A stretch of DNA of 64,000 nt from Roseivirga ehrenbergii (GTDB taxonomy: Bacteria > Bacteroidota > Bacteroidia > Cytophagales > Cyclobacteriaceae). The notes under the pieces are model-generated. The model had not been told where the DNA came from, ran no database searches, and saw nothing but the letters and a program-made list of their open reading frames with translations. The translations under genes and the position numbers were made by a program. The stretch is from positions 124,001-188,000 of the forward strand of contig NZ_LQZQ01000045.1 in NCBI RefSeq assembly GCF_001593005.1, read 5' to 3'. Positions 2,532 to 52,591 of this stretch are shown here, one piece after another (the stretch's first letter is position 1; each line of letters opens with the position of its first letter).

Positions 2532-2610
2532 GGTATCAGCTTTGTATAATAACAGGTGTTGTTTTGAGTTGACCATATTATGGTTGGGTAGAGTGCTTTC
2601 ACGCTACCTA

Positions 2611-2634
2611 AAGAAGGGCCTTCGGGCCCTTCTT
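2611..2634. other. 10-bp hairpin with TTCG tetraloop
   Basis: AAGAAGGGCC-TTCG-GGCCCTTCTT is a perfect 10-bp stem closed by a very stable tetraloop. No T-run follows on either strand, so it is not a standard intrinsic terminator. It lies just upstream of the promoter at 2647-2677. Confidence 0.7.
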
Positions 2635-2646
2635 CTGTTAAAAACA

Positions 2647-2677
2647 TTGTTGTATTCGGTTTAAACAAATACTTTTG
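2647..2677 (+). promoter_or_regulatory. Promoter of the TPR lipoprotein gene
   Basis: TACTTTTG at 2670-2677 fits TAnnTTTG; a TTG-containing -33-like sequence lies at about 2647-2652. The predicted 5' leader is about 80 nt long. Confidence 0.5.
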
Positions 2678-2762
2678 CAGCCTTTAAACCATTAATGGCT
2701 GAATCAATCTTAAACACTGTTTGAAACGGATTCATTCTTTAAAATTACTTACATCGTATTCA

Positions 2763-3362
2763 ATGAAAAATCGTTTATCTCTTTTGGCCTTAGTTCTCAT
2801 TACTTTCTTGTTTTCGTGTAACGATGATGTTACTAGAAAGGGAGACCAGCTTTATAATGAAGGGAATTTTAAGGAGGCGGTTGACGCTTACTCTGAATAT
2901 CTTAAAACCAATCCTAAAGACATTAAATCTCTTTACAATCGTGGAAGGGCGTATGAAGAATTGAAGCAGTTGGATAAAGCAAAAGCCGACTTTATAGCTG
3001 TGTTAGATGTTGATGGAGATAACCTAAATGCTAATTTGAGCATGGGTAAGTACTGGTACAATCAAAAGGAATTTAACAAGGCTATCATATTTTTTGACAA
3101 AGTGATCGAACTGGATGGTTTGCGCTCGGATGCTTACATGCTTAGAGGTCGAAGCTATCACCAAAAAGGCGACTTTGACAAAGCAATGGAGAACTACAAC
3201 CAAGCCATCAACTTTGATAATGATAACGCTGAAGCATTTCTTTACAGAGGAGCGCTTAAGATTGCTTTAAATCAATTCAAAACTGCTTGTCAGGATTTCA
3301 CTCGATCTCAAGCTTTAGGTTCTTCTGAGGCTTCTGAGGCCTTGGCAAAGCACTGTCGTTAA
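2763..3362 (+). CDS. TPR-repeat lipoprotein
   Basis: 199 residues starting at the ATG at 2763. An in-frame TTG at 2721 would add 14 residues ahead of the signal peptide and is unlikely. The N-terminus MKNRLSLLALVLITFLFSC is a lipoprotein signal with the lipid-modified Cys at position 19. Residues about 25-190 are tandem tetratricopeptide repeats (for example YNEGNFKEAVDAYSEYL, YNRGRAYEELKQLDKAKADF). TPR proteins are scaffolds for protein-protein contacts, here at the outer or inner membrane. The partner is unknown. Confidence 0.85.
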   Translation: MKNRLSLLALVLITFLFSCNDDVTRKGDQLYNEGNFKEAVDAYSEYLKTNPKDIKSLYNRGRAYEELKQLDKAKADFIAVLDVDGDNLNANLSMGKYWYNQKEFNKAIIFFDKVIELDGLRSDAYMLRGRSYHQKGDFDKAMENYNQAINFDNDNAEAFLYRGALKIALNQFKTACQDFTRSQALGSSEASEALAKHCR

Positions 3363-3378
3363 TTTTGAAGTAATCAGG

Positions 3379-4380
3379 TTAAAACCATTTCGAAGTCATT
3401 AAACTACTTTCCAATGCGTTTTCCAGTTCGTCTGAAATGCCAGGAAAGAAGTCTAACCCTGTCAGTTGTTCTACACTGTCGATTGTGACAACGAAAGAGG
3501 ATAAAGGGGCTGAACTTGCTTCATTCTTCATTAAGAAGGCAATGGCTTTAATCTCTGGTTTTCTCATGTCCAGAATAATTTTGTAGTAATATTCAGGAAC
3601 GGATACCTGATTAGAGCCAATGGTTCTGTATTTCTTGTTTAATACAGGGCCTGTTACTACATAAATCTGATCGTTTTCCATGGCCCAAGTTCTAACTTGG
3701 TCTTCTAGTTTCTTCCAAAGCCCGCGATTAAAAGATGGATCTTGCGGACTCATGTTACTCATAAAAAAGGATTGACTCAAGGCAAATTCACTATAAGAAA
3801 AATCGGCTGCTGGTGCCAGATGTCCACGGTCATAACCACTTTCTTTATAATCATTTAAGCTAGCTGAGCCTGTTTTTACTCTACTGTCTTCTCTAAAATC
3901 ATCTTTTCTTTCGAATGTAGTTTGTCTTAAACTGTCAGCAAATAGGGCATAGGCTACCCATACGGCTTGCTCATGTTCTTCGCTATAACGCAAAGTGTAA
4001 TAAGGTCTTTCTATTATGGCCTGCGATGTCTCATAAGCTGGCCAAGCAAAATCAAAGGCTTTGGTGAAGTAGAGGTCGTAAGTATCAAAATCTACTTTGC
4101 TTTCTTCCTGCTTTGAAGGGGGGGCTTTTTCAGTCTTTGGAATTTCCTGTTTAGAATCAAGTTCTTCAGGTGCTAAAACAGGAGTTACTTCTTCATCAAA
4201 AAACGAAGGAATTAGCTTTTCTTCTTTAATAGCCAGATAGCCATAACCCAAGGCGATAAGGATAATAAGCCCTAAAGAGAACTTCCAAAGGCTAAAACCT
4301 CCTGATTTTCCCTTTCTTCCCGAAGTTGTTTTCTTCTTTGATGTACCCCTACTTGAAACTGCTGCCTTCCTTTTTGCCAT
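3379..4380 (-). CDS. Membrane-anchored DNA/RNA non-specific endonuclease (NUC1 type)
   Basis: 333 residues. A Lys/Ser-rich cytoplasmic tail (1-28) is followed by one transmembrane segment (about 30-50), an acidic linker (60-100) and a C-terminal beta-beta-alpha-metal nuclease domain (about 100-325). The catalytic motif is DRGHLAP at 184-190 with the general-base His187; MSNMSPQDPSFNRGLW (207-222) supplies the metal-binding Asn region. The family cleaves single- and double-stranded DNA and RNA using Mg2+. The topology puts the nuclease in the periplasm, suggesting nutrient nucleic-acid degradation or defence against incoming DNA. No immunity-like partner is adjacent. Confidence 0.9.
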   Translation of the reverse strand: MAKRKAAVSSRGTSKKKTTSGRKGKSGGFSLWKFSLGLIILIALGYGYLAIKEEKLIPSFFDEEVTPVLAPEELDSKQEIPKTEKAPPSKQEESKVDFDTYDLYFTKAFDFAWPAYETSQAIIERPYYTLRYSEEHEQAVWVAYALFADSLRQTTFERKDDFREDSRVKTGSASLNDYKESGYDRGHLAPAADFSYSEFALSQSFFMSNMSPQDPSFNRGLWKKLEDQVRTWAMENDQIYVVTGPVLNKKYRTIGSNQVSVPEYYYKIILDMRKPEIKAIAFLMKNEASSAPLSSFVVTIDSVEQLTGLDFFPGISDELENALESSLMTSKWF

Positions 4381-4484
4381 GCCCTATTTTGATTTTCCGC
4401 AATGATAAAGATATTTTTCTTGAGCGGACTTTTTTTAATTCACTAAATTACTTTCTGCTTTATGAACCAAATTAACCACAATAC

Positions 4485-7400
4485 ATGAAAGAAGTTATAA
4501 TCAAACCACAGACAAAGTGGCAAAAGCACCTGTATTGGTGTCTACTTTGCTTCGTATTTATGTCCTTAAGCTTTACTTTACATGCTAACTATCATTGGCA
4601 AGAGAATAAGCAAGATACAACAGGGCAAACTAAGTTTAAAGACTTACCTCTGAAGGCCGAACGAACATTAGAATTTAATACTTCGGAAGGCACTTGGCTT
4701 TCTCTAGATATTAGTCCCGATGGCCAAACCATTATTTTTGATATGTTGGGTGATATCTATACCATTCCATTTAAAGGAGGTCAAGCTACTCGACTTACAG
4801 ATGGAATGGCTTACGATACGCACCCCAAATTCAGCCCCGATGGAAAAAGCATTGTATTCACTTCCGATAGAAGTGGTAACGATAACATTTGGACAATGGA
4901 ATTGGAATCGAAAGAAACCAAGCAAATCACTAAAAGTGAAAACGAGAATTTCCAGTCTGCTGAATGGTCGCCTGATGGAGATTACATTGTAGCCTCTAGG
5001 GGAAGAAGAAATCTAAAACTGTACATGTACCACAAAAATGGTGGTGGGGGATTCGAGTTGATTAAAGAACCTGCGGGATTGAAGCTTGTTGAGCCTGCTT
5101 TTAGTGCTGATGGCCGATATATCTACTATTCGCAACGAAATGGCGCTTGGAACTATAATGCTCAATTGCCTCAATATCAGGTAGGAATGTACGACAGAGA
5201 TAACGGAGAAAGATCAACAATTACCTCGCGTTATGGATCTGCATTTACACCAACTTTATCGCCAGATGGAAAGTATTTGGTGTACGGTTCGCGCTACGAA
5301 GAGCAAACAGGCTTAGTCTTACGAGACCTTAAGTCGGGTGATGAGCGTTGGTTGGCTTACCCAGTTCAGCGTGATGATCAAGAGTCTATTGCTCCTTTGG
5401 GCGTTTTGCCAGCTATGACATTTACCCCGAACAGCAAAGAATTATTGGCGTCTTATGGAGGTAAAATTTGGAGAATCCCTGTTGCCGGAGGTAATGCCAC
5501 AGAAATTCCTTTCAACGTAGACGTTGAACTAGAAATGGGGCCTAGGTTAAAATTTAACTATCCAATTTCTGATGATGAAAATATGTTGGTCACTCAAATT
5601 AGAGATGCCGTGCCTTCTCCTGATGGAAACACGATGGTATTTACGGCCTTGAACAGAATATATGTAATGGACATTCCTTCAGGAAGCCCAAAACGAATCA
5701 CGAATTTTGAAATGACAGAAGCCATGCCTACATGGTCGCCAGATGGTAAGTCTATTGCCTTTGTCACTTGGTCTGAAACTGAGGGAGGAAGCATTTATAA
5801 GCTGTTGATGGATGGAAAAGCCAAACCAGTGAAACTCACCAAAGAGTCTGCGATTTATACTGCACCCGCTTGGAACAAGAATGGAAAAATTGTTTTTACA
5901 AAGGGGAGTGCACAAAACATGAAAGATGCGGAAGGGCCTTCGGCACCAAGAGCTACCGAAGATTTGGCTTGGATTAGCGAGAATGGAGGCGAGGTTAACT
6001 TTATCATGAAAACTAATGGACGAGGCAATCCGCATTTCGTGAAAAATGATGACAGAATTTACTTGAGCAGCGGAAAAGGTTTAAGTTCTGTAAGATGGGA
6101 TGGAACGGATGAAAAGAACCTAGTGGCCATTACAGGGATAACAACTTATGGTTCGAATCCGGTGGATGATCACTTAGGTATGTCGACTGAAAATACCATG
6201 TTAAGTGAATCTGATAACTGGCGCGAAAACAATCCTCCTGCCCGTGCTAGCGAAATCTATATGGCACCAGAAGGGGATAAGGCCATGGCGGTAATTAACA
6301 ATGAAATTTACATCGTCACTGTTCCGAAATTGGGTCAAACACCAACCATATCTGTAGCCAATCCTGAATCTGCTCAATTTCCAGCTAAAAAACTCACTGA
6401 AATAGGAGGTGAGTTTGCCAAGTGGTCTGCCGATGCAAAGAAGGTACATTGGAGTTTGGGTAGCGCTCATTTTATTTATGATTTAGAAAAAGGAGAAGCC
6501 TATGCCGATTCGGTAGCAGCAGCCAAAAAAGCAAAAGAAAGAGCGGATAAAGAGAAAACCGAAGAAGAAAAGAAGGCAGAGGCCGAAGAGAAAAAAGAGG
6601 AAAAGAAGGAGGAAGCTAGCTTTAAACCAACAGAGTTTAAGGTCGAAGTAAACGTAAAGAAGGACATTCCGAAAGGCACGGCCCTCTTAAAAGGTGCTCG
6701 AATCATTACCATGAATGGTGATCAGGTAATCGAGAATGGAGATATTCTAATTGAAAATGCCAGAATCAAAGCAGTGGGCGCTTCGGGTACGCTTTCTATA
6801 CCCAGAGGAACGGAAACTATTGATATGTCGGGTAAAACCATCGTTCCCGGTTTTATAGATACACATGCGCATATGTGGCCAGCGTGGGGTTTAGAGAAAA
6901 ATGAGGTTTGGGTTTACGCAGCCAATTTGGCCTATGGTGTTACAGCCACGCGAGACCCTCAAACAGCTACTACCGATGTGTTGACCTATGCAGACATGGT
7001 TGAAACGGGACAGATTCCTGGTCCAAGAGTATACTCTACAGGCCCAGGAGTTGGTTATTGGGCATATAATCTAAAGAGCCTTGAACAAACCCGAAAGGTC
7101 TTAAAGCAGTATTCGGAATATTACAATACCAAAACGATTAAAATGTATTTGGTAGGAAATAGAAAACAGCGTCAATGGGTAATTCAGGCCGCGAAAGAGC
7201 AAGAACTGATGCCAACTACCGAAGGTGGGTTGGATTTCAAGCTCAACATGACCCAAATGCTTGATGGCTACCCTGGGCACGAACATTCGTTTCCAATTGC
7301 ACCATTGTACAAAGATGTAATTCAGTCGGTGGCTCAGTCTAAAATGGCTTATACATCTACTTTACTGGTGTCATACGGTGGGCCTTGGGCCGAAAACTAT

Positions 7401-8102: not shown

Positions 8103-9422
8103 ATGCGAAAAATATCAATTCTGTTTGCCTTAGTCGTACTCATCATCGCTTCACCATTAACGGCACAAACTGATAAAGTCGAGAAGAAACTGATTCAGTA
8201 TGTAAATGACCATAATGATGAATATTTGAGTTTGCTGAAAGAGTTGATCAACATCAATAGCGGCACCATGAATTTTGAAGGTGTGCGTCAGGTAGGAGAT
8301 GTGCTCATGGAGAAGTTCAAGGCTTTAGGCATGGAAGTAGAATGGGTAGATGGATCGTCATTCAATCGGGCTGGCCATTTAGTAGCGCGTATTAAAGGTG
8401 GAAAAGGAAAGAAGATTTTAATGATCGGTCATTTAGATACCGTTTTCGAACCCGACAGCCCGAATCAGAAATGGTCTCAAGTAGATGAAAACACCATCAA
8501 AGGCCCGGGCATTGCCGACATGAAAGGTGGCGATGTAATTATTCTTCAATCGTTGGCGGCTTTGCATAGTGCTGGTTTGCTGAAGGAGATGAACATTACT
8601 GTAGTAATGACAGGCGATGAAGAACTTTCAGGAAGTCCCCTTTCTGAATCTAAAAAGGCATTGGTCGAAGCTGCTAAATGGGCTGATGTTGCTTTGGGTT
8701 TTGAGAACGGAGATGGAAATCCTGCTACTGTAAACGTAGCCAGAAGAAGTTCTTCAGGTTGGACATTGACAGTAACGGGTAATGCTTCACATTCTTCACA
8801 AATCTTCAAGCCAAAAGTAGGGGCGGGTGCCATTTATGAAGCCTCTAGAATTCTATACCAGTTTTACGATGAGTTGGCAGGAGAAGAATATTTAACCTTC
8901 AACCCCGGAATGATTGCAGGTGGAACAGAAGTGAGTTACAACAAGTCGGAAAATACTGGAACTGCGTTTGGAAAGAATAACGTAGTGTCGAAAGATGTAA
9001 CGGTAACAGGCGATATTCGTGCATTAACTCCAGAACAAATTACCAGGACCCAAGAAACCATGAAGCGAATTGTGGCCAATCATCTTCCAGGCACCAACGC
9101 TACAATCACTTTTGCTGAAGGTTATCCGCCTTTTGCACCAACCGAAGGGAATTATCAACTTATGAACTTGTTCAGTAAAGTGAGTCAAGATTTGGGTTTT
9201 GGGGAAGTGACAGCAGTTAATCCTGCCGATGCTGGTGCAGCCGATATTTCCTTTACTGCAGGTCATATCGAAATGGGAATTGATGCCATGGGAATGTCAG
9301 GCGCTGACGATCATACCATTAATGAAACTGGTGACCTTCGTGCTTTGCCAAAGCAGTCGAAAAGAGCAGCCGTTTTGATTTACAGACTTTATAAAGGGGT
9401 GGATTTGAAAACGAAGAAATAG
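8103..9422 (+). CDS. Exported M20-family metallopeptidase (glutamate carboxypeptidase-like)
   Basis: 439 residues with a signal peptide (MRKISILFALVVLIIASPLTAQ). Zinc-ligand motifs of the M20 family are in order: MIGHLDTVFEPDS (His and Asp), GPGIADMKGG (bridging Asp) and MTGDEELSGS (catalytic and ligand Glu), with a lid/dimerisation domain between about 210 and 330. Members such as carboxypeptidase G2 release C-terminal glutamate or hydrolyse di- and tripeptides. Location is periplasmic or secreted. It is transcribed separately from the upstream amidohydrolase, because a terminator lies between them. Confidence 0.92.
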   Translation: MRKISILFALVVLIIASPLTAQTDKVEKKLIQYVNDHNDEYLSLLKELININSGTMNFEGVRQVGDVLMEKFKALGMEVEWVDGSSFNRAGHLVARIKGGKGKKILMIGHLDTVFEPDSPNQKWSQVDENTIKGPGIADMKGGDVIILQSLAALHSAGLLKEMNITVVMTGDEELSGSPLSESKKALVEAAKWADVALGFENGDGNPATVNVARRSSSGWTLTVTGNASHSSQIFKPKVGAGAIYEASRILYQFYDELAGEEYLTFNPGMIAGGTEVSYNKSENTGTAFGKNNVVSKDVTVTGDIRALTPEQITRTQETMKRIVANHLPGTNATITFAEGYPPFAPTEGNYQLMNLFSKVSQDLGFGEVTAVNPADAGAADISFTAGHIEMGIDAMGMSGADDHTINETGDLRALPKQSKRAAVLIYRLYKGVDLKTKK

Positions 9423-9478
9423 GCAATATTGAATTAGCAAGTTTTTGGAGGCTGTAAGAAAAAGCGGCTTCCGAAAGC

Positions 9479-9652
9479 TTATTTGGCAGTCTTGGGTCTT
9501 AACCGAACTAAACCCAAAAATATTATTCCAATACCAATCCCTAAAAGAGCTCCACTGAAAAAGTCTGTCGTAGAAGCAAAGTGTGTTATGAATTGACTAG
9601 CAACAATAACAGACATGCCAGCAACAATGAGTATAAGTGATTTCTTTTTCAT
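9479..9652 (-). CDS. Small two-helix membrane protein
   Basis: A 57-codon reading frame from ATG at 9652 to TAA at 9479. The protein has two hydrophobic helices (about 4-21 and 31-49: GALLGIGIGIIFLGL) and ends in a basic tail (RLRPKTAK). It lies 65 bp downstream of the AI-2E exporter gene on the same strand and may share its transcript. Its composition and Met-Lys-Lys-Lys start look like a real small membrane protein, but I do not recognise a family. Confidence 0.55.
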   Translation of the reverse strand: MKKKSLILIVAGMSVIVASQFITHFASTTDFFSGALLGIGIGIIFLGLVRLRPKTAK

Positions 9653-9717
9653 TTTTCTTCGTTGTTTCTATATTTCAATCTAAAGTAAAAAAGGTGCTGT
9701 TCTTTAAAACTGAACCT

Positions 9718-10797
9718 TTAATCAGGTTCGTCAGCATCGAGCTGACTTCGCCCCATCAGTTTTACAATAAGGTCAGCATCTGGAATCTGTGCCAATATTA
9801 CTCTGGCCAATACAATTAAAGGCACCGACAGTAGCATTCCAGCAATTCCCCAGATATATCCCCAAATTACAAGTCCTAAAATAACGGCTACCGTATTTAA
9901 TGCTACTTTAGAACCCATCATCAGCGGTTCTACAACATTACCCCAAACAAACTGTGTGGCAATCAGAAGCAAAATGAAAAACAGATAATTGGAACCATTG
10001 TCAATTTGAATAAGGCCTAACAGAACAGGAGGGATGGTGGCCATAATTGACCCAACAGTAGGAATGAAATTCAGCATAAAAGCCAAGAAACCCCAAAATA
10101 GGGCGAAATCTACTCCAAAACCCCAACAAATCAGTCCAAAGAAAGCCCCCGTGCTCAAACTGGTGAAAAACTTCACCTTCATATAACTGGCTACAGCATC
10201 TTTAATTTCTACAAAGGCCTTGAGCAAACGTTGTTTGCCAATGTCATCGTCACCTTCTAAATAGTTAATGTATTTTTCATACTTCACAATACTACCCAAA
10301 ACGGCCACCAAATAAATAGCCGAAAGCACAAGGTTAAATACAAAATTACCCACCTCAGTGGCTACCATTCCTGAGGTGTTTAGCATCATTTCAGGAGAAA
10401 GAATTTGGTATAAAGTTTCAGTGAAGTCTCGTTCTTTTAAGGCAGAGAATCCCGGAATACTTTCAAACTGAATTACCAAGCTGTTAAGCTTATTCCCAAT
10501 TTGGGTTAGGAGTTTATCCTTCTGATCTACAATTTGTAAGCCCGTATCGAACACGATTAAGCCGACAAGAAATACAAAACCTAAAGTAAGTACCGTTATT
10601 ACCGTAATGCTTAGCATGTAGGGCCAACCTTTTCTGTCCAGATAAGCAATAACAGGCTGTAGCAAAATGCCAATGAAAATGGCAAAGGTCAATGGAATTA
10701 GGAGCGCAGATAATTCTTTGATTACGAGCACTATGACGATGCCCATAAAAAGTAACAGTATGTTTTTAATCGTTACAATGTTGTTATCGGGAAGCAT
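9718..10797 (-). CDS. AI-2E family transporter
   Basis: 359 residues with about seven to eight hydrophobic segments. The order is typical of the AI-2E/YdiK/PerM superfamily: two N-terminal helix pairs, a soluble loop (about 85-150, FESIPGFSALKERDF), then a C-terminal membrane block with LNFIPTVGSIMATIPPVLLGL and GNVVEPLMMGSKVALNTVAV. Family members export autoinducer-2 or act as Na+(Li+)/H+ antiporters, so the substrate cannot be fixed from sequence. Confidence 0.9.
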   Translation of the reverse strand: MLPDNNIVTIKNILLLFMGIVIVLVIKELSALLIPLTFAIFIGILLQPVIAYLDRKGWPYMLSITVITVLTLGFVFLVGLIVFDTGLQIVDQKDKLLTQIGNKLNSLVIQFESIPGFSALKERDFTETLYQILSPEMMLNTSGMVATEVGNFVFNLVLSAIYLVAVLGSIVKYEKYINYLEGDDDIGKQRLLKAFVEIKDAVASYMKVKFFTSLSTGAFFGLICWGFGVDFALFWGFLAFMLNFIPTVGSIMATIPPVLLGLIQIDNGSNYLFFILLLIATQFVWGNVVEPLMMGSKVALNTVAVILGLVIWGYIWGIAGMLLSVPLIVLARVILAQIPDADLIVKLMGRSQLDADEPD

Positions 10798-41783: not shown

Positions 41784-44096
41784 TTAATTACCGTCAGGTA
41801 AATCCATATCAACATTGTTTCTGTAATCGCCTAGCAAATGCTCTGCAAAGAAATACCACATCAATTTTTCGTAGTAGTTTCTCTTGCTGCCATAACCATG
41901 TCTTGAACCAGGAATTGGCATATAATCGAAACGTTTGCCCTCTTTCATCAACTCATCAGCTACACGCATACTGTTTGCTGGGTGTACGTTATTGTCGATT
42001 GTACCGTGAGTAAGTAAAAGATGTCCTTTTAAATTACTGGCCAAAGATTGGTTGGTTTTTACCTTTCCATCCCAAGTAACTGTGGTGGTTTCGTTACCAT
42101 CTTTGTCTTTCTTCGTTTTCTCCTTTTTGATCACACCATTGTGCGTTTCGCCCCACCATTTATTATAAATGTTGTTATCGTGGTTACCGGCAGAAGAAGC
42201 CGCAGCAGTATAGAAATTAGGGTAGGTAAGCAAAGCCGCAGTAGACATAAATCCACCACCTGAGTGGCCGAAAATACCTACGTTATCAAGGTCGATCCAC
42301 TCGTGTCTTTCAGCCAATTGCTCTAAAGCACGCTTATCATCTGCCAAAGCATAATCTCTTAAATTCTGCCATCCGTAAGTGTGGTAGTATTTAGAACGCA
42401 TTGGCGAACCACCTCTGTGGCCCATACTTACTACAATAAAGCCCAATTGCGCCATGGCGGTTTGGTAACCACCAGTAATGGTAAAATCATTCGTAAATGA
42501 TTCTACTTGTGGGCCAGGGTATACATAAGAAATGATTGGGTACTGACGTGTAGAATCAAAATCGAAAGGCTTGAACATTACACCGTAAAGGTCGGTAATA
42601 CCGTCATCGGCTTTCATGGTAAAGCGCTCAGGTTTTTTCCAACCAGCTTGCTCTAATAAGCTCAAATCAGCAGTTTCTAACTGCATAATTACGTTTCCGT
42701 TGTTGTCTTTTAGGGTTGAAGTTGGCGTAACATCTACCGCTGAGTTATTATCGATGTAGAATTTATTAGATTCCGACATGCTGATTCTATGATTACCATT
42801 TTCGATAGAAAGCGCTTTAAAGCCTGTGCCATCAAAATTCGATTTGTATATCAAAGAATAATAAGGATCGATACCTTCTTCTTTACCAAAAGCTTCGAAA
42901 TACACTTTTCTTCCTACCGTATCAATGCTTTGTACGCGGCCTGTTACAAAGTGACCAGAGTTGGTGATTTTATTTTTCAAAGCGCCTGTTTGGCCATCAT
43001 AAAGGTAAAGCTGTCCGAAGCCAGTTCTTTCCGACCACCAGATCAGTTCTTTTCCTTCTTCAAGAATAATTAATTGCTGATAATCCCAGTTGAAATAAGG
43101 GTGGTCTACATCTTGGAATAACACTTTCAGCTCACCATTGGCAGTATTTACAACGCTCACGTCTAGGGTGTCGCTCGTACGGTTCATTCTGGTCAAGAAA
43201 AGCTTGTCAGAAGTTTTTCCCGGTAGGTATGCACTAATAGTTTGGTCAATGTATTTGTCAATATCAACGATGATACGCTCTCTCGTTTTTGGATCGAAAA
43301 TCTCTAATTGCTCTTGCGGAACATTTTGGTCGCCCGGCATGGCATATTTGTAAACCTCTAATTTTGGTCTCGGATTGTTCAATTCATTGATTACGAAAAG
43401 CTCTTCCACTTTTCTAGAGTCAGAACGGTTAACGAAGAATTTTGCTTCGTCCTCAAACCATCTTACTCTCGCTCTTGTACGTTTGTCTTTTGTGGTATCA
43501 CCAGCATCGCCCGCATAGCTAAACCATCTTTCGCCATCTTCAGTCAGCTGAATTTCGGTAGAGTCGGCATCGTCCGCCATCATCATATACAGGTTATGAT
43601 TTTTAGCGAAAGTGATGTAAGTACTGTCTGGAGAATAAGAAGCCCAGTTGTTTCTTTTTTTACGTTTTTCTGTAGAATCACCTTTAGAAATTACCTTGGT
43701 ATTTAAGTTGAAGTGGTAGTCGATACTGTCCACCATAAACTTAAGTGTAGTATTGTCATCCTCTAATTTCAAACCCTTTAAATCAAGGTCGTTGTGGTTC
43801 CAAGGCTTGCGAGTAAGTTCGCTCAATTGTGCTGCAAAGTCCTTGTTATCGAACATTTGAGTTTTGGTTTTCTTCACTGGGTCTACCACGTAGAATTTCT
43901 TTCCAGAAGTAGTGGTGTAAGTGTACCAAAATTTGTCGCTGTCTTTAAACCACTGCGGAGAAACGCGCGTGCTTTTCAGCATTTTGCTCAAGTTATCTGA
44001 GCTAAACTTTTCCGCTGCCTTAAAATCAGCTTTGTGCTGCTGTCCCGAAAGCTGTATAACAGCGAAGGTCAGCAGGAGTGTAAAAATCTTTTTCAT
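41784..44096 (-). CDS. Dipeptidyl-peptidase IV-like S9 serine peptidase
   Basis: 770 residues from the ATG at 44096 (MKKIFTLLLTFAVIQLSGQ, a signal peptide). An upstream in-frame start at 44147 would place 17 residues before the signal and is rejected. N-terminal eight-bladed propeller (about 60-490) gates a C-terminal alpha/beta-hydrolase (about 510-760). The nucleophile Ser is in GHSGGGFMS, the Asp in HGTIDNNVHPANS and the His in GSRHGYGSKR. DPP-IV-type enzymes remove Xaa-Pro dipeptides from peptides in the periplasm. Confidence 0.93.
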   Translation of the reverse strand: MKKIFTLLLTFAVIQLSGQQHKADFKAAEKFSSDNLSKMLKSTRVSPQWFKDSDKFWYTYTTTSGKKFYVVDPVKKTKTQMFDNKDFAAQLSELTRKPWNHNDLDLKGLKLEDDNTTLKFMVDSIDYHFNLNTKVISKGDSTEKRKKRNNWASYSPDSTYITFAKNHNLYMMMADDADSTEIQLTEDGERWFSYAGDAGDTTKDKRTRARVRWFEDEAKFFVNRSDSRKVEELFVINELNNPRPKLEVYKYAMPGDQNVPQEQLEIFDPKTRERIIVDIDKYIDQTISAYLPGKTSDKLFLTRMNRTSDTLDVSVVNTANGELKVLFQDVDHPYFNWDYQQLIILEEGKELIWWSERTGFGQLYLYDGQTGALKNKITNSGHFVTGRVQSIDTVGRKVYFEAFGKEEGIDPYYSLIYKSNFDGTGFKALSIENGNHRISMSESNKFYIDNNSAVDVTPTSTLKDNNGNVIMQLETADLSLLEQAGWKKPERFTMKADDGITDLYGVMFKPFDFDSTRQYPIISYVYPGPQVESFTNDFTITGGYQTAMAQLGFIVVSMGHRGGSPMRSKYYHTYGWQNLRDYALADDKRALEQLAERHEWIDLDNVGIFGHSGGGFMSTAALLTYPNFYTAAASSAGNHDNNIYNKWWGETHNGVIKKEKTKKDKDGNETTTVTWDGKVKTNQSLASNLKGHLLLTHGTIDNNVHPANSMRVADELMKEGKRFDYMPIPGSRHGYGSKRNYYEKLMWYFFAEHLLGDYRNNVDMDLPDGN

Positions 44097-44239
44097 GCAT
44101 GTAAGGTTGTTTGTGCCAATAATAAGCCCAAAGCATCTGAAATACAACGGCTTTATTTTACACTCACTATAGAAGGGATAAGCGGAAGGGTGCTGTCAGG
44201 ATTGATGTGAACTTTGATATAAGAGTCATTGTGCTTTGT

Positions 44240-44350
44240 CACCTCCCTGACCCTCCTCTAGGAGAGAATGCCTTAGTGGTTGCTTAGAATTAATGGAGCT
44301 TAAAATTAGCACGGTACTATTTCCCTCTACTAAGAGGGGTTAGGGGAGTG
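44240..44350. repeat. Imperfect inverted repeat with C- and G-rich arms
   Basis: The left arm (44240-44266, starting CACCTCCCTGACCCTCCTCT) and right arm (44323-44350, ending GAGGGGTTAGGGGAGTG) are imperfect complements over about 27 bp, with about 56 bp between them. The motif is typical of dispersed palindromic repeats. The surrounding gap 44097-44588 holds no gene that I can support. Confidence 0.6.
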
Positions 44351-44377
44351 TTTATATAAATCCATTTCAGTGAAGGC

Positions 44378-44404
44378 TTAACCGCAAAGAACTCAAAGTA
44401 GCGG
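44378..44404 (+). repeat. Short dispersed repeat (TTAACCGCAAAGAAC family)
   Basis: TTAACCGCAAAGAACTCAAA resembles the units at 59610-59640, 62085-62110 and 63040-63050 (ACCGCAAAGAACGC) and the reverse units at 63305-63322 and 63563-63578. Only about 25 bp match here. Confidence 0.55.
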
Positions 44405-44552
44405 AAAAGTTAAAAGCCCAATGGATATTACTGTTTTATCAATAAATTTCACTAAAATAGCACTTGTTAAAAGATGCCTATAGCGCAGCTATTTCCGTAG
44501 CTAACGAGAACTTTTTACTAACTATTGGAAATATATCGTGCATAAAAGTGCG

Positions 44553-44576
44553 CGTTACATAACGTTGTGTGTAAGC
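44553..44576. repeat. 5' boundary sequence of the NACHT gene cassette
   Basis: CGTTA-CA-TAACG (44553-44564) is a small palindrome that runs into GTTGTGTGT (44564-44572). The latter is the exact complement of ACACACAAC at 47648-47656 beyond the other end of the NACHT gene. The ATG of the gene follows at 44589. Confidence 0.55.
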
Positions 44577-44588
44577 AAAACAAATAAT

Positions 44589-47500
44589 ATGAAATTTAGA
44601 AAAATAATAGCATTAGAGCTTACTCACAATAAAAAAGGTGATTTGTTTTGTCGATTAATGTCCGACCTCTTTCATGCTTTGGGCTATGATGAACCTAGGT
44701 TTGATGTTCATAAGTCAGGAAGAGAAATTGATTTGCAGACTGTACATAGAATCGAAAATAAAATTGCGATTGCGGAATGTAAGGCTCATAAGGCTACCAT
44801 TGGAGGTAGTGATATAAATAAATTTGTAGGTGCTCTAGATGCTGAAAAAAGAAAGCACTCTAAATCAGATTTATACAAAGATTATGATGTTACTGGATAT
44901 TTCGTCTCCCTTTCAGGATATAAAGAAACTGCAATTGAACAAGAATTGGACAATAATAACGACAGATTAATTCTTTTAAAACCAGAACAAATTATTGACG
45001 AATTGGTGAAAGGGAGAATAATAGTCCCTTTAGAAAAAGCTGTTGCCTCAGTTAACTCCAATGAACTCACCCTTGAAATGTCAGCAGACCTGATAGCATA
45101 CAATAAAGGCTGGGTATGGGCTATATATTATTCGAATGGTCAAAGAACAACTCATGTAGCTTTTGTACATGCTGAAGGAAAGCTTTTAGTTAAAGAACTT
45201 TCAGATGAAATTATAAAACTCGATAAAAAGTTAGATAAAAATTTTACTGACTTGGAAGTTATATGCAATAATGATAAGCTTCCAAAGATTTTAGAAACAC
45301 AAAAGAAATATTTTAAATATTTAGAGAATGAATGCGGTGAAATTCATTTTGAAGGGTTACCTACTGATAAGGATGCTGGTTCTGTAAAAGTAAGGTTGGA
45401 AAATATTTTCATTACGCCAAGCTTAGAAATCATATCAAATCAACAAAAGGAATTTAATGATATTATAGAAGATGAACGAATCAGTATAGGTAATATCTTA
45501 AACATGAATAGTAGGTTAGCCATTCTAGCAAAGCCTGGAGGAGGTAAATCAACCTTAATAAAACGGTTAGCCATTGCTTATGCATTCCCATCTAGAAAAA
45601 AACTTATTGACGATAACCTTCCCAAGGAAAAATGGTTCCCTATATTTATTAGATGTAGAGAATTGGGAGAAAAAGTCACTTCTAGTATTACTGAGATTAT
45701 TCATAATATCCCAAATCGTGCAGAAATAAATGATTGCTCAGAAACATTTGTCAATATCATTTCAAACTCCCTACAAAAAGGAACAGCACTTTTATTAATA
45801 GATGGACTTGATGAAATCTCTGATGATCGAAATAGGATTTCATTCGTAAATCAATTACGAACTTTTATAGCTACCTATCCTAATATTCATATTGTAATTA
45901 CATCTAGAGAAGCAGGATTTAGAGCTGTAGGCGGAATACTGGCAAACTATTGTGCCAACTATAAATTGTCACCACTTAATTCGGAAGAAATTGAAAGTTT
46001 ATCGATAAAGTGGCATACTGAAATAGTGGATAATTCAGAGAAAACTAAAAAAGAAGCTGTTAACCTAGCTAAGATAATTATTAATGACAATAGAATAAAA
46101 ACATTAGCTGAAAACCCTCTTTTATTGACAACCTTACTTTTTGTAAAAAGATGGGCTGGATATCTACCAACTAGAAAAAGTGTTCTATATCAAGAAATGA
46201 TTAAACTGCTAATGGTTACTTGGAATGTTGAGGGACATGAGCAATTAGACATAGAAGAAGCAGAACCTCAATTAGCATATGTAGCCTTTTGGATGACTTC
46301 AAAGGGAGAACAAACAATTACATTAAATGACCTTAAAAAGTGTCTTTTAGATGCCCGAAAACAAATGCCTGATATTTTAGGTTATACCAAGATTAGTATA
46401 CCTGATTTTATCAAGAGAGTTGAGTCAAGAAGTAGCTTATTAATAATGTCGGGGCACAAAAAAGTTGATTCAGGTGAAATTGTACAGATTTATGAGTTTT
46501 TACATCTCAGTTTTCAAGAGCATTTAACAGCTAAAGCAGTTGTAGAAAAATTCCTTCCTATTTCCGAAAACAGAAAATCAACTCTTGACATTATCAAACC
46601 CCACATAGAAGATGAAAGTTGGAAAGAAGTTATTCCTTTAGTTGCAGTCTTGTTAAGAAGAGATTCAAAAGAGTTAATCGAACATTTAATCGAATTATCC
46701 ATAATATCGCAAGATGATGATATTCAGCATGTAAATAGAAAAAGAAATTCTATTTCACCTGCCGAGCTTTTAGGAAGCTGTATCGCTAATGAAATTCAAA
46801 TCACTCCTGAACTACTTGATAATGCAATTGAGTGGTACTCTAAAAACAGATATCGAATCCGAGATAAATCTTCGACAGAAACTATTCTAAATAGTAAATT
46901 TAGAGAAGCATTCAAAGATAAAATCCATAATTTATATTTTGAGGAATTCAATGATAAATTCTCAAGCCCTATTGGTAGTTTAATTGGAGAAGTGTACATA
47001 AATGAGTTAAAAAAGAGCGAAAAGGAAGTTCATAAAACAATATTAGCGGATATCAAAACCCCAAACAGAGAAACACAGGCCACTTCATTATTTGGATTAA
47101 TGATTTTTTGTTTTGAAAATAAGTTACATGTTAATCAAACAAAAAATGCTAAAATCAAACAATATGATTTTACAGAAATAGTTGAAAAATTATTGACTAT
47201 TATCAAGTCTGACGATAAACACCTTTGCTTTCCGGCTTTGTGGAGTATTGCTTGGTTTAATGAATCATTTACTTTTTCAGAAACTTTACGAGTAGATATC
47301 CTGAAAAGTCTTCTTGAAATATGGAATAAATATGACGATTCAAAAAACCTTAATAGAGTGTGCACATGGGCAATAAAAACACTTCTTAGCCCGAATATTC
47401 AGATCGATAAAAAATTAGTGGGTATTGATAATATAGAATCTATTATCTTAAAAAGATTCAACTCTCCCTTGAATGAATACGACAAATTAGTTTCAGTTTT

Positions 47501-47675
47501 TCTTAGTGTTCATTTAAGTTTATCCTTTGATAAAACGGAAGTAGAAAAGATATTAATAGAGGAAAACAAAAAGCATAGGAGCTCTAATAATCAGATCGCA
47601 GAATATGCTGAAAGACTGGGTGTGAAATTCAATAAAAAAGAAAGCCAACACACAACAAGGGCTAAAAAATCATAG
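44589..47675 (+). CDS. Mrr-like nuclease-NACHT STAND NTPase, candidate anti-phage protein
   Basis: 1028 residues from the ATG at 44589 (an in-frame GTG at 44538 lies in the boundary repeat). Domains: an N-terminal PD-(D/E)XK restriction-endonuclease-like domain (about 15-150) with Asp48 (GREIDL) and Glu63-Cys64-Lys65 (AIAECKAH). Then an unassigned alpha/beta region (160-290). Then a NACHT NTPase with Walker A AKPGGGKST (Lys320), Walker B LLLIDGLDE (Asp405, Asp408, Glu409) and sensor IVITSR (435-440). Finally a helical C-terminal half (about 600-1010) likely serving as the sensor. The architecture matches STAND anti-phage proteins (Avs and bNACHT-type): target recognition drives oligomerisation and nuclease activation. 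The gene is visibly more A/T-rich than its neighbours, stands alone, and its last codons lie in a stem-loop. Defence is inference from architecture. Confidence 0.88.
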   Translation: MKFRKIIALELTHNKKGDLFCRLMSDLFHALGYDEPRFDVHKSGREIDLQTVHRIENKIAIAECKAHKATIGGSDINKFVGALDAEKRKHSKSDLYKDYDVTGYFVSLSGYKETAIEQELDNNNDRLILLKPEQIIDELVKGRIIVPLEKAVASVNSNELTLEMSADLIAYNKGWVWAIYYSNGQRTTHVAFVHAEGKLLVKELSDEIIKLDKKLDKNFTDLEVICNNDKLPKILETQKKYFKYLENECGEIHFEGLPTDKDAGSVKVRLENIFITPSLEIISNQQKEFNDIIEDERISIGNILNMNSRLAILAKPGGGKSTLIKRLAIAYAFPSRKKLIDDNLPKEKWFPIFIRCRELGEKVTSSITEIIHNIPNRAEINDCSETFVNIISNSLQKGTALLLIDGLDEISDDRNRISFVNQLRTFIATYPNIHIVITSREAGFRAVGGILANYCANYKLSPLNSEEIESLSIKWHTEIVDNSEKTKKEAVNLAKIIINDNRIKTLAENPLLLTTLLFVKRWAGYLPTRKSVLYQEMIKLLMVTWNVEGHEQLDIEEAEPQLAYVAFWMTSKGEQTITLNDLKKCLLDARKQMPDILGYTKISIPDFIKRVESRSSLLIMSGHKKVDSGEIVQIYEFLHLSFQEHLTAKAVVEKFLPISENRKSTLDIIKPHIEDESWKEVIPLVAVLLRRDSKELIEHLIELSIISQDDDIQHVNRKRNSISPAELLGSCIANEIQITPELLDNAIEWYSKNRYRIRDKSSTETILNSKFREAFKDKIHNLYFEEFNDKFSSPIGSLIGEVYINELKKSEKEVHKTILADIKTPNRETQATSLFGLMIFCFENKLHVNQTKNAKIKQYDFTEIVEKLLTIIKSDDKHLCFPALWSIAWFNESFTFSETLRVDILKSLLEIWNKYDDSKNLNRVCTWAIKTLLSPNIQIDKKLVGIDNIESIILKRFNSPLNEYDKLVSVFLSVHLSLSFDKTEVEKILIEENKKHRSSNNQIAEYAERLGVKFNKKESQHTTRAKKS

Positions 47676-47714
47676 CTGCCCTTTGAGCCAGCAACGTTTT
47701 TTAGCCAAACGTTA
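47645..47714. repeat. 3' boundary stem-loop of the NACHT gene cassette
   Basis: ACACACAAC (47648-47656) is complementary to the 5' boundary. GGCTAAAAAA (47660-47669) pairs perfectly with TTTTTTAGCC (47697-47706), enclosing the gene's stop codon and a smaller GGGC/GCCC pairing. AACGTT occurs at 47693-47698 and ACGTTA follows at 47709-47714. The layout resembles a folded recombination site more than a terminator, but the identity is not proven. Confidence 0.5.
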
Positions 47715-47722
47715 AACCCCAC

Positions 47723-47743
47723 AAAAAAAGCACCTCTCGGTGC
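47723..47743 (-). terminator. Terminator for the DUF2911 gene
   Basis: On the reverse strand GCACC-GAGA-GGTGC runs into TTTTTTT (A-run 47723-47729). Confidence 0.85.
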
Positions 47744-47768
47744 CTTTCAATTCTTAGTTAAGTTTTGT

Positions 47769-48338
47769 TTACCACTTAATTGGCATTTCGGCAATGGTGT
47801 TTTCCCAGCCTACCATAAGGTGCGTACCGCCTTCCACTTCTTTAAATACCATAGAAAGGTATTCAATAGGCTCGTCAGACTTGCTAACTGGGCCATCTAC
47901 TCTCGCTACTTCTTTGCTGTCTTTTAAAGTGTAATTACCCCAAGTGTTCAATTTGCTATGCAATACAAAAGTCCATTTGTCGGTATTAGGAATTGCAAAT
48001 AGGGTATAGGTTCCCGCTTTTACTTTGGTATTGCCTACGGTTACATCCTGGTAGAATGTGATTTCATTGGCTTCGTTAGCCCCTAAACGCCACATTTGGC
48101 CAAACGGAGCAGCTTTTTCTCCTAGCATTGTTCTGCCTTTCAATTGAGGACGGCTATAGTAAATTTTGATTTTAAGGTCTTTTACTGGCCTGCCCATGAC
48201 TTCGTCTAATGGTTGTCCGTCAGGAAAATAAGCAGCATCCATTGGGCTTGCATCTGGCCCTGGGAATTTCTGTGCTTGCGCGTTAAAGGTGACCAATAAG
48301 GCCGCAATAGCAAAAAGAGTAGTGATTGATTTTTTCAT
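47769..48338 (-). CDS. DUF2911 family exported protein
   Basis: 189 residues with a signal peptide (MKKSITTLFAIAALLVTFNAQAQ). The core DLKIKIYYSRPQLKGRTM, MWRLGANEANEITFYQDV, AGTYTLFAIPN and WTFVLHSKLNTWG is characteristic of DUF2911, a periplasmic all-beta family common in Bacteroidota and of unknown function. Length is normal. Confidence 0.92.
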   Translation of the reverse strand: MKKSITTLFAIAALLVTFNAQAQKFPGPDASPMDAAYFPDGQPLDEVMGRPVKDLKIKIYYSRPQLKGRTMLGEKAAPFGQMWRLGANEANEITFYQDVTVGNTKVKAGTYTLFAIPNTDKWTFVLHSKLNTWGNYTLKDSKEVARVDGPVSKSDEPIEYLSMVFKEVEGGTHLMVGWENTIAEMPIKW

Positions 48339-48404
48339 GGTTATGGTTTTGTTTGTTTAATGAATGCTTTGAACTCCAAATTAAGGCAATAGGTTTTCCC
48401 AGCC

Positions 48405-49637
48405 TCAATAGAAAAACAGATAAGCGATAAAAATTGCTGCAATTACGCCCACAAGGTCGGCTATAAGACCAGCGGTAACCGCATACCTAGAGTTTTTAAT
48501 ATTCACCGAACCGAAATACACGGCCAGTACATAAAAAGTGGTTTCGGTAGAGCCTTGGAACACGCTTGATAGGCGGCCAGCAAATGAATCAGCCCCGAAA
48601 GTATTCATAGTTTCTACCATCATAGATCTTGAGCCACTACCACTCAAGGGTTTCATCAGGGCGGTAGGAAGTGCGTCAATAAACTCTGTATTTACACCAA
48701 TAAATGAAAAGCCAAACTTCAGGCCATTCGTAATTAAATCTAAGGTGCCTGATTCTCTAAACACGCCTATGGCAACAAGCATGGCAACTAAATAGGGGAT
48801 AATTTTAATAGCAATAGAAAAGCCTTCTTTTGCGCCTTCAACAAAACTTTCATAAACGTTAACCTTCTTCTTTAAAGCGAGAATGATAAAGGAGATGATG
48901 ATACTGAACAATATAAGGTTACTCGAAATGCTTGAAATGACTTGTATTTGAGCTTGAGAAATAGTGTTGAAATACAGAATTAAACCAATGATTCCAGCAG
49001 TTAAAGTACCTAAATAGAGAAGTACAGTTTTGTTGAAAAGGTTAATTTTCTGATAAATAGATACGGTAATAAGTCCAGCCAAAGTAGAGAAATAGGTAGC
49101 CAATAATATTGGAAGGAATATGTCAGATGGGTTGGCTGCTCCAGCAAGTGCCCGGTAGGCCATAATGGAAACAGGAATTAGCGTTAAACCCGAAGTGTTC
49201 AATACCAAGAACATAATCTGGGCATTGGAAGCGGTGTCTTTATTAGGGTTAAGTTCTTGTAATCCGTCCATGGCTTTTAGGCCAAGCGGAGTGGCGGCAT
49301 TATCGAGCCCTAAAAAGTTCATCGAAAAATTCATGACCATAGGACTAAATACAGGATGGTTCTTCGGGATTTCTGGATATATTTTGGTAAACAAGGGGCT
49401 AATGAATTTAGCTACAATGGCCACAATACCGCCTTTTTCTCCGATTTTCATGATGCCTAACCAAAGACAAAGTACGCCAGTTAAGCCTATAGATAGATCG
49501 AAACCAGTCTTGGCCATGTCAAAGGTGCTCTGCATCATTGTCGGAAAAACTTCGGTATCACCAAAGAAGATCAGTTTGATGAGCGCGACCACAAAGGCGA
49601 TTAAGAAAAAGGCAACCCAGATGTAATTTAAAGCCAT
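48405..49637 (-). CDS. SpmA-SpmB-like nucleoside-recognition (Gate domain) membrane protein
   Basis: 410 residues, about nine to ten hydrophobic segments. Two Gate-domain halves are fused: an SpmA-like half (LTGVLCLWLGIMKIGEKGG; NFLGLDNAATPLGLKAM) and an SpmB-like half (about 225-410; IPYLVAMLVAIGVFRESG; GSGSRSMMVETM). The family is named from sporulation proteins but is widespread in non-sporulating Bacteroidota and is presumed to move a small solute; substrate unknown. Confidence 0.88.
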   Translation of the reverse strand: MALNYIWVAFFLIAFVVALIKLIFFGDTEVFPTMMQSTFDMAKTGFDLSIGLTGVLCLWLGIMKIGEKGGIVAIVAKFISPLFTKIYPEIPKNHPVFSPMVMNFSMNFLGLDNAATPLGLKAMDGLQELNPNKDTASNAQIMFLVLNTSGLTLIPVSIMAYRALAGAANPSDIFLPILLATYFSTLAGLITVSIYQKINLFNKTVLLYLGTLTAGIIGLILYFNTISQAQIQVISSISSNLILFSIIISFIILALKKKVNVYESFVEGAKEGFSIAIKIIPYLVAMLVAIGVFRESGTLDLITNGLKFGFSFIGVNTEFIDALPTALMKPLSGSGSRSMMVETMNTFGADSFAGRLSSVFQGSTETTFYVLAVYFGSVNIKNSRYAVTAGLIADLVGVIAAIFIAYLFFY

Positions 49638-52020: not shown

Positions 52021-52576
52021 TATACTTTTACTCAAATAATTCGTTAATTTGAAATATGGACATTCAAGCAGAAAAGCGAGATTTAATTCAATGGTTGTCA
52101 GGACTCAATGATCTTCGAATGATCAAACTTGTAGGGACACTAAGAAAGGCATCTGAAGCAGGTTCAGGTTCAAAACTCACCAAAGCTGAAATATCCGCTA
52201 TCGATCAAGGCTTGAAATCCATAAAAGAAGGAAAGGTTAAATCTCATGAGGATGTTATGAAACTCACAAAGAAAGAATTCCCAAACCTTTTCGAATAGTC
52301 ACCATGGAAGTCATTTGGTCAGATGATGCTTTTGAAGACTATTTAGAGAATATCAGATTTCTAATCAGACGGTGGTCTGAAAAATCAGCAATTAATTTTA
52401 TTGACGAGGTAGATACTATAATTGACCTTTTAAAATTAAACCCTGAAGCATTTCCATTAAGCAATTATAAGAGTATTAGAAGGGCTGTTGTAAGGAAGCA
52501 AATCACACTTTTCTATAAGGTAGAAGATGAAACAATCATCTTGGTTCGCTTCTGGAATACTTATAAAAACCCAGAA
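52021..52576 (+). repeat. Direct repeat copy 1 carrying a toxin-antitoxin module
   Basis: About 555 bp from TATACTTTTACTCAAATAAT through the toxin gene to AAAAACCCAGA, nearly identical to 56250-56805, exactly 4229 bp away. Identity begins sharply 35 bp before the antitoxin start and ends inside the last toxin codons. Confidence 0.95.
52056..52298 (+). CDS. Antitoxin-like protein, copy 1
   Basis: 80 residues, helical (MDIQAEKRDLIQWLSGLNDL). The size, position 5 bp before a ParE-like toxin and helical character mark it as the antitoxin; it is not an obvious ribbon-helix-helix protein. It resembles small addiction-module components that begin with a kinked helix of similar pattern. It differs from copy 2 at five of 80 residues (36, 47, 54, 65, 69). 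Confidence 0.75.
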   Translation: MDIQAEKRDLIQWLSGLNDLRMIKLVGTLRKASEAGSGSKLTKAEISAIDQGLKSIKEGKVKSHEDVMKLTKKEFPNLFE

Positions 52577-52591
52577 TCCCTTAAAATCTGA
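52304..52591 (+). CDS. ParE/RelE-superfamily toxin, copy 1
   Basis: 95 residues. MEVIWSDDAFEDYLENI and WSEKSAINFIDEVDTIIDLL form the helical front, and AVVRKQITLFYKVEDETIIL and VRFWNTYKNP the beta sheet, as in RelE/ParE toxins of the YoeB/Txe-like branch. Whether it cleaves mRNA or inhibits gyrase cannot be told. It differs from copy 2 at 16 of 95 positions, five of these in the last five residues. Confidence 0.85.
   Translation: MEVIWSDDAFEDYLENIRFLIRRWSEKSAINFIDEVDTIIDLLKLNPEAFPLSNYKSIRRAVVRKQITLFYKVEDETIILVRFWNTYKNPESLKI

Follow-up and report, generated by a model that had tools for sequence, protein, structure and literature searches.

A predicted NLR-like anti-phage gene of Roseivirga ehrenbergii in a probable single-gene integron-type cassette

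The locus

The window analysed here is a stretch of 64,000 nucleotides from Roseivirga ehrenbergii (NCBI RefSeq assembly GCF_001593005.1, contig NZ_LQZQ01000045.1, forward-strand positions 124,001 to 188,000), and positions without a further label refer to it. It contains an intact open reading frame (ORF) on the forward strand, from ATG 44589 to a stop at 47675, for a STAND protein of 1028 residues that joins a PD-(D/E)XK nuclease domain to a NACHT NTPase. The product is predicted to sense phages and to cut DNA, and its architecture resembles that of the immune receptors of animals and plants. A preliminary description of the gene had recognized this domain content but overlooked the integron-cassette anatomy that surrounds it. 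Below, genomes of the genus are given by G-numbers, G000 being that of the window, and loci by L-numbers.

The STAND protein

The ORF list also offers a longer form starting with GTG at 44538. We take ATG 44589 as the start, because it aligns with M1 of the homologues and GTG 44538 would fall outside the cassette. Pfam finds a Mrr_cat domain near the N-terminus (E 4.9e-5; 23.9 bits against a curated cut-off of 21), so that at the Pfam level the nuclease is of the Mrr type, and a central NACHT domain (E 1.8e-11, above the curated cut-off). Five family members were compared, and Mrr_cat was detected in four of them and NACHT in all five. Asp48, Glu63, and Lys65 are invariant in the four aligned N-termini (the fifth sequence, L005, was excluded since its frame is broken there), and Lys320, Asp405, Asp408, and Glu409 are invariant in all five aligned members. 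Thus, the reading as an Mrr-type PD-(D/E)XK nuclease fused to a NACHT, and the catalytic residues named for both, were confirmed at the level of Pfam matches and alignment. The long helical C-terminus that had been described is likewise present, as the AlphaFold model is almost all helix from about residue 640.

The AlphaFold model of the full protein has a mean predicted local distance difference test (pLDDT) score of 53.8. The score is mostly above 70 only at about residues 720-1010, and the model is usable only in this C-terminal helical part, the N-terminus being poor. Residues 160-290, which match no Pfam family, are predicted at low confidence to form three strands and some helices. The first Foldseek match is NLRP7 (E 1.7e-5, TM-score to the query 0.14), followed by designed armadillo repeats, with NLRC4 at rank 46, and the TM-scores are low. 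Sequence matches in the PDB (Merlin, importin, BST2, RIG-I, and others) have E 0.046 or worse and are not meaningful. NCBIfam gave a partial match of the NACHT to EruA, at 30.6 bits against a cut-off of 1000, and a stray match to ZapD. Clade 6 bacterial NACHT proteins have an NCH1-type C-terminus. With Pfam, whose coverage of NCH1 was not checked, neither the full-length protein nor residues 501-1028 alone gave an NCH match.

Defence of E. coli is reported for the proteins bNACHT25 and bNACHT32 (clade 6; PD-(D/E)XK-NACHT); it depends on D48 of the DNase domain, and infection is accompanied by degradation of DNA (PMC12169576). Like them, the window protein has an N-terminal PD-(D/E)XK DNase, a central NACHT, and a helical C-terminus in one chain. 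D48 is an active-site residue there and a motif residue here; the proteins were compared by description, and the agreement in number may be chance. They differ in that the window protein gives no NCH match in Pfam, has a sensor region without a family assignment, and lies on an integron-type cassette. The NACHT is central and has Walker A and B motifs, with an effector domain before it and a putative sensor region after it. We regard the protein as plausibly a STAND defence system of one gene, with the design of bNACHT25 and bNACHT32.

Cassette anatomy

The 5' flank of the gene reads ...ACATAACG up to a crossover point and TTGTGTG after it. The 3' flank reads CACACAAC...GGCTAAAAAA...TTTTTTAGCC-AAAC-G up to a second crossover and TTAAAC after it. 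We take this to be the layout of an integron gene cassette. As in such a cassette, an attC with R'', L'', L', and R' lies at the 3' end, with the gene in the same orientation, and the stop codon of the STAND gene is inside the attC. The 5' core is complementary to R'' in nine of nine bases. The motif GTTGTGTG occurs twice in the 64 kb, at 44564 on the forward strand and at 47649 on the reverse strand, bracketing the STAND gene. Two copies are not rare as such, since 35 of 100 shuffles contain at least this number; what is unusual is their placing. A 9-base flank pair of the cassette kind is seen for 1 of the 58 ORFs in the window.

The bottom strand of the attC folds with −14.2 kcal/mol (z-score, z, −4.05), and none of 200 shuffles is as good; for the top strand, with −9.8 kcal/mol, 2 of 200 shuffles are as good. 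A covariance model, built on eight sites among which is the window's own, finds this attC with 68.7 bits as the only site in the window. Rfam gave no match at E up to 1 in 43500-48500.

The pairing of the cores was also evaluated in 14 cassettes. These were chosen by eye, which biases the pairing, and the permutation shows only that the partners belong together. The 5' and 3' cores match in 9.07 bases on average, compared with 3.94 in 182 cross pairs, of which four reach at least eight bases, and none of 100,000 permutations was as good. The three STAND cassettes measure 3078-3084 bases from core to core, and the next largest of the 14 measures 1148. Furthermore, the DNA similarity between the window and the locus of a homologue in Maribacter starts at base 44564, the crossover G, and ends at 47675, inside the attC. 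The genes around the Maribacter homologue differ from those of the window despite the shared cassette DNA.

The gene had been called lone, which is correct insofar as a single ORF fills the cassette. The coordinates given for it hold for the ORF, but as limits of the mobile unit they fall short by 24 bp at the 5' end and 36 bp at the 3' end.

Table 1. Coordinates of the features at the STAND locus, with the evidence for each.
Feature	Position	Strand	Basis
STAND protein gene, 1028 aa: Mrr-type PD-(D/E)XK, linker, NACHT NTPase, helical C-terminus	44589..47675	+	ORF, Pfam, alignment
Mrr_cat domain, residues 19-135, with D48, E63, K65	44643..44993	+	Pfam, alignment
Linker without family, residues ~151-290; three strands and helices, low confidence	45039..45458	+	Pfam, AlphaFold
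NACHT domain, residues 312-477, with K320, D405, D408, E409	45522..46019	+	Pfam, alignment
Helical C-terminal part, residues 691-1010, least conserved; putative sensor	46659..47618	+	AlphaFold, Foldseek, dN/dS
Integron-type gene cassette, 3147 bp, crossover G44564/T44565 to G47711/T47712	44565..47711	+	cores, Maribacter similarity start
attC: R'' 47648-47656, L'' 47660-47669, L' 47697-47706, R' GTT from 47711	47648..47718	+	fold, covariance model
attI-like leading site; 44532-44551 identical to part of the site directly behind the G017 integrase	44494..44572	+	alignment, folding
Upstream flanking gene	41784..44147	-	ORF list, sister-genome search
Downstream flanking gene, used to locate the locus in sister genomes	47769..48338	-	ORF list, sister-genome search

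The leading site and integrases of the genus

The stretch TATATCGTGCATAAAAGTGC of the 5' flank recurs without change in two sister genomes. In G010 it opens an array, and in G017 it immediately follows a full-length integrase. The leading sites of the window and G017 are identical over 20 bases, compared with 7-12 bases in 19 control loci, among which Maribacter and UBA6059 (a metagenome-assembled genome, MAG) share only 9-10. Nine leading sites align with GTT, with a hairpin, as judged by eye, just before it. Five of seven fold better than shuffles, with z from −2.1 to −4.5, that of Maribacter by a different pairing, and the integrase-linked leading site of the window's own genome does not (z −0.82). 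We read the leading site of the window as a putative attI, here without an integrase. No ORF of at least 60 aa lies wholly between the upstream gene and the leading site, and the locus is thus not a complete integron.

Relatives of the integrase were found at E up to 1e-45 in 7 of the 19 genus genomes, at eight places, and the attC model has a match within 6 kb at four of these (G000, G004, G016, and G017). The two full-length integrases scanned, those of G017 and G001, score 212.3 and 209.7 bits with TIGR02249 (IntI), each in two stretches, below its cut-off of 265 bits. They just reach the cut-off of 220 of NF040815 (site-specific recombinase/integron integrase), with 220.3 and 220.6. The truncated integrase of the window's genome has 174.1 bits on TIGR02249. 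A gene above the IntI cut-off is present in 2 of 98 family genomes, and the window's own is not one of them.

Three arrays were inspected. An integron-like array lies 540 kb from the window locus in the same genome (L112, G000:C45:708000-720000, at about 2538-7005), consisting of an N-terminally lacking tyrosine integrase ORF, a hairpin site, and four cassettes, identified by eye, with matching cores. In G017 (L126, G017:C12:229500-234600), the full-length integrase is followed by a hairpin site and cassettes whose cores match in 8 and 9 of 9 bases. In G016 (L127, G016:C2:588500-593500), a 238-aa integrase frame is directly followed by a hairpin site and cassettes, with cores matching 9/9 twice, one of them read by eye. 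In the integrases at L118 and L119, with a two-stretch integron integrase match, the SAM-like domain is preceded by an N-terminal extension of about 80-95 residues, and in one of the two there is a DUF5710 match below the cut-off.

One locus with several cassettes

The flanking genes, which are probably S9-peptidase-like (upstream) and DUF2911-like (downstream), were sought side by side in 18 sister genomes. They are adjacent without a cassette in 12, at a distance of 147-276 bp in 11 of these and 566 bp in G015 (147-566 bp overall). In at least 11 sister genomes, the gap is therefore too short to hold any of the kinds of cassette observed. In G001, both genes are present with one other cassette between them (L048 300-1440), with a 321-aa ORF of no significant family; a HEPN-like nature of this ORF was considered and was unsupported by Pfam. 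In G004, the downstream gene and a 68-bp piece of the 5' flank enclose two or more other cassettes (L113, reverse complement, about 8350-10440). Among their ORFs, one is YaaC-like (Pfam E 5.5e-12), and another, of 218 aa, matches EF-Tu domain 3 with 29.3 bits against a cut-off of 27. The downstream gene of G009 is preceded by a different gene, and G010, G012, and G018 have only distant relatives of it. The locus is thus a cassette dock, with other cassettes in two sister species. The presence of different cassettes at one locus suggests excision and insertion by an integron integrase.

Transfer of the STAND cassette is favoured by the finding that its protein is 84% identical to that of Maribacter, compared with 67% for the ABC-F protein of the same Maribacter locus and its best match in the window's genome, a single comparison.

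attC sites in other genomes

A pattern for the left half of the attC gave 23 matches in 196 family genomes, compared with 14 for the reversed-pattern control. By eye, eight of the 23 are full-looking attC sites, including that of the window, two are possible (L037 and L038), and 13 are chance-like. The attC-like sites in the family vary in loops and core letters, and one of the eight, that of L035, has GAT for GTT at the crossover. At E up to 1, the covariance model gives 29 sites, spread over 16 of the 19 genus genomes; with 150 candidates scored per genome, the counts are lower bounds, the E-values are rough, and the weak sites are perhaps chance. This search missed the site at L112 5112-5304, which was recovered by direct search. 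A pattern for the 5' boundary gave seven matches in the 19 genus genomes and four in the control, and by eye those of the window and G010, and possibly G011, look like boundaries. A generic cassette finder was discarded, as it overlooked known cassettes and gave seven hits when run on reversed sequence as a control.

The model was also run on 10 homologue loci of the STAND protein, a set that does not include L109 and in which L004 lacks part of its 5' flank because the contig ends there. Besides the window, a full attC is present only at UBA6059, which carries the homologue as a cassette at another locus, and the Maribacter attC appears decayed. At L002:9060-9257, in Maribacter, R'' and L'' are kept, and a matching L' was not seen.

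Relatives, modularity, and selection

Close relatives were sought in one genome per species, for 84,980 species. Four loci were confirmed, in Maribacter zhoushanensis (84% identity), the Flammeovirgaceae MAG UBA6059 (62%), a contig labelled as a Nanoarchaeota MAG (55%), and a Sulfurospirillum MAG (53%). The label of the Nanoarchaeota contig, which carries the L004 homologue, may reflect a binning error. Flammeovirgaceae belong to Cytophagia and Maribacter to Flavobacteriia in the NCBI taxonomy. The protein is present in one of the 19 genus genomes, its own, at E up to 0.001, and, at E up to 1e-60 and with its own genome included, in 3 of 295 family genomes and, with the alignment as query, in 6 of 395 phylum genomes. 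No relatives were matched in phage records, and none were confirmed in viral contigs. Matches occur in 45 plasmid records, none covering 80% of the query, and the best 20 of the 45 all lie within residues 218-691. The gene is rare and scattered in its distribution.

One plasmid protein, WP_173993517.1 of Agrobacterium fabrum plasmid pAt2788a, which is typed as conjugative, shares the NACHT core (residues 241-725, 38% identity). Its N-terminus is annotated as SIR2 family, in place of Mrr_cat, and its C-terminus is without a match. McrC, AAA ATPase, and nucleotidyltransferase-HEPN genes are present in the surrounding 4 kb. This joining of the NACHT core to another N-terminus supports a modular STAND protein.

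Identity between the window protein and that of Maribacter is 96.7% in residues 1-150, 87.3% in 151-300, 92.1% in 301-690, and 68.8% in 691-1010. The corresponding ratios of nonsynonymous to synonymous substitution rates (dN/dS) are 0.016, 0.045, 0.048, and 0.17, and dS, at 0.91-1.35, is close to saturation. Against L003 and L004, too, identity is lowest in the C-terminal part (43.4% and 33.1%), and most dN/dS values of these two comparisons are unusable since dS is saturated. Purifying selection between the window and Maribacter is thus strong on the nuclease and NACHT and weaker on the C-terminus. All ratios are below 1 and hence are not evidence of positive selection. The pattern is as expected of a conserved effector and motor with a sensor that may be changing in an arms race.

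Could the protein instead be an Mrr-like type IV restriction enzyme, which cuts modified DNA, with the NACHT driving or gating the cutting, and has no dedicated sensor of phage proteins? The Mrr_cat match, and the McrC and AAA ATPase genes near the SIR2-NACHT relative, would agree with this. We consider it unlikely, since the NACHT core also occurs with a SIR2 family N-terminus and hence does not depend on a DNA-cutting partner, conservation is lowest in the long C-terminus, and Pfam finds no DNA-binding domain in the protein.

Proposed mechanism and its alternatives

We propose, with a probability of roughly three in four, that the gene encodes a bacterial NLR-like (STAND) protein that acts against phages, and that it forms an integron cassette by itself. 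The cassette anatomy is observed, and we infer the anti-phage activity and the movement of the cassette from sequence. The fast-changing C-terminal helical part would sense a phage-made or phage-induced signal, after which the NACHT ATPase would oligomerize. The N-terminal PD-(D/E)XK domains, so brought together, would cut DNA, and the phage would be stopped or the cell killed. A tyrosine integrase acting in trans would recombine the attC, releasing the gene in circular form, and would insert this circle at the integrase-less attI-like site between two resident genes.

Several observations weigh against this proposal. AlphaFold of residues 1-304 gave a mean pLDDT of 29, too low for a fold call, so that the nuclease assignment derives from the Pfam match and the motif. 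No PADLOC family matches the protein at E up to 1. Avs1-5 (AVAST) proteins have an effector-STAND-helical repeat layout like that of the window protein, which differs from them in having no PADLOC model match and in an NTPase that is a NACHT by Pfam. The modular STAND reading of the preliminary description is supported by the Agrobacterium fabrum relative, and by profile the protein is not a catalogued Avs. In G004, no more than 68 bp of the 5' flank are shared, and the 13 kb examined do not contain the upstream gene, which suggests that the left side is rearranged there; the 12 sister genomes without a cassette offset this weaker evidence.

Other adverse points concern the integron itself. 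There is no integrase at the locus, and the integrase ORF of the window's genome (C45:710537-711172), although followed by cassettes, lacks the N-terminal domain. In the window, the fold of the leading hairpin is not distinguished from that of shuffles (z 0.21). The Maribacter attC reaches only 20.9 bits (E 0.022), and the model finds no attC at E up to 1 at L004, L005, L007, L107, L108, L110, and L111. Since most homologue loci tested are without a clear attC, the cassette form appears to be restricted to part of the protein family. The absent or truncated integrase, the homologues without attC, and the weak hairpin would all suit a spread that does not involve an integron, in which one flank repeat belongs to a terminator hairpin, the other arose by chance, and homologous recombination brought the gene into a neutral spot. 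This is very improbable, given the core pairing in the 14 hand-picked cassettes, the start of the Maribacter similarity at the crossover base, the 20-base identity with an integrase-linked site, and the attC sites near integrase genes in G000, G016, and G017.

Finally, promoter-like sites of the cassette, sought for the sigma-70 type only, are at chance level, and the cassette could therefore be silent. A passenger that is unexpressed, or whose STAND protein acts in another process, would also be compatible with a defence activity that is so far predicted, and with the lack of a PADLOC match, at E up to 0.1, for all three ORFs from the dock cassettes of sister species. We give a passenger a small chance, since the nuclease and NACHT are under purifying selection and published bNACHT proteins with a PD-(D/E)XK effector do defend (PMC12169576).

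Beyond the anti-phage cassette itself, we tentatively suggest, at somewhat less than even odds, a distinct integron platform in this group of Bacteroidota, with a Xer-like integrase that does not fit the IntI model, a hairpin attI, and attC sites of the GTTGTG type. Integrase-less attI docks at other places of the chromosome would exchange cassettes in trans, and NLR-type receptors of about 1000 aa, their sensors diversifying, would move as single-gene cassettes between classes (Cytophagia-type hosts and Maribacter, of the Flavobacteriia).

Comparison with known cassettes

According to a review (PMC12409362), integron cassettes serve as stores of anti-phage genes, and the defence genes in them are streamlined to small size. 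In Xanthomonas, 20 orthologous cassette genes (1.8%) are defence genes, and integrase genes of the integrons are commonly truncated or absent (PMC12444791). The anti-phage cassettes of Vibrio, mobile integrons, and Xanthomonas resemble the present one in that defence genes are single attC cassettes. They differ in that the STAND cassettes, at the lengths given above, are not small, the dock here is without an integrase, and the integrases of the genus are below the IntI cut-off. HEPN proteins in integron cassettes were noted in 2013 (PMC3710099). These too are a predicted defence or dormancy effector in a cassette, but with a small RNase domain, in proteobacteria, and without a STAND NTPase or sensor. 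Integron integrase genes had been noted in the Bacteroidetes/Chlorobi group by 2008 (PMC2426708), and complete integrons are few in Bacteroidota according to the IntegronFinder authors (PMC9024848).

Both halves, PD-(D/E)XK-NACHT defence and defence cassettes, are already known kinds, and their combination in one cassette is the variant. Among the literature matches listed, from a collection without most subscription journals, none describes an integron cassette that carries a STAND or NACHT protein, and none a Bacteroidota integron platform of this kind. A complete NLR-like receptor in one cassette would mean, if true, that large immune receptors are also stocked and swapped by integrons. The different cassettes of the dock in sister species permit a direct side-by-side comparison.

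Elsewhere in the window, at 52056-52591, an 80-aa ORF without a Pfam match is followed by a ParE toxin (Pfam E 3.6e-8), a candidate type II toxin-antitoxin pair.

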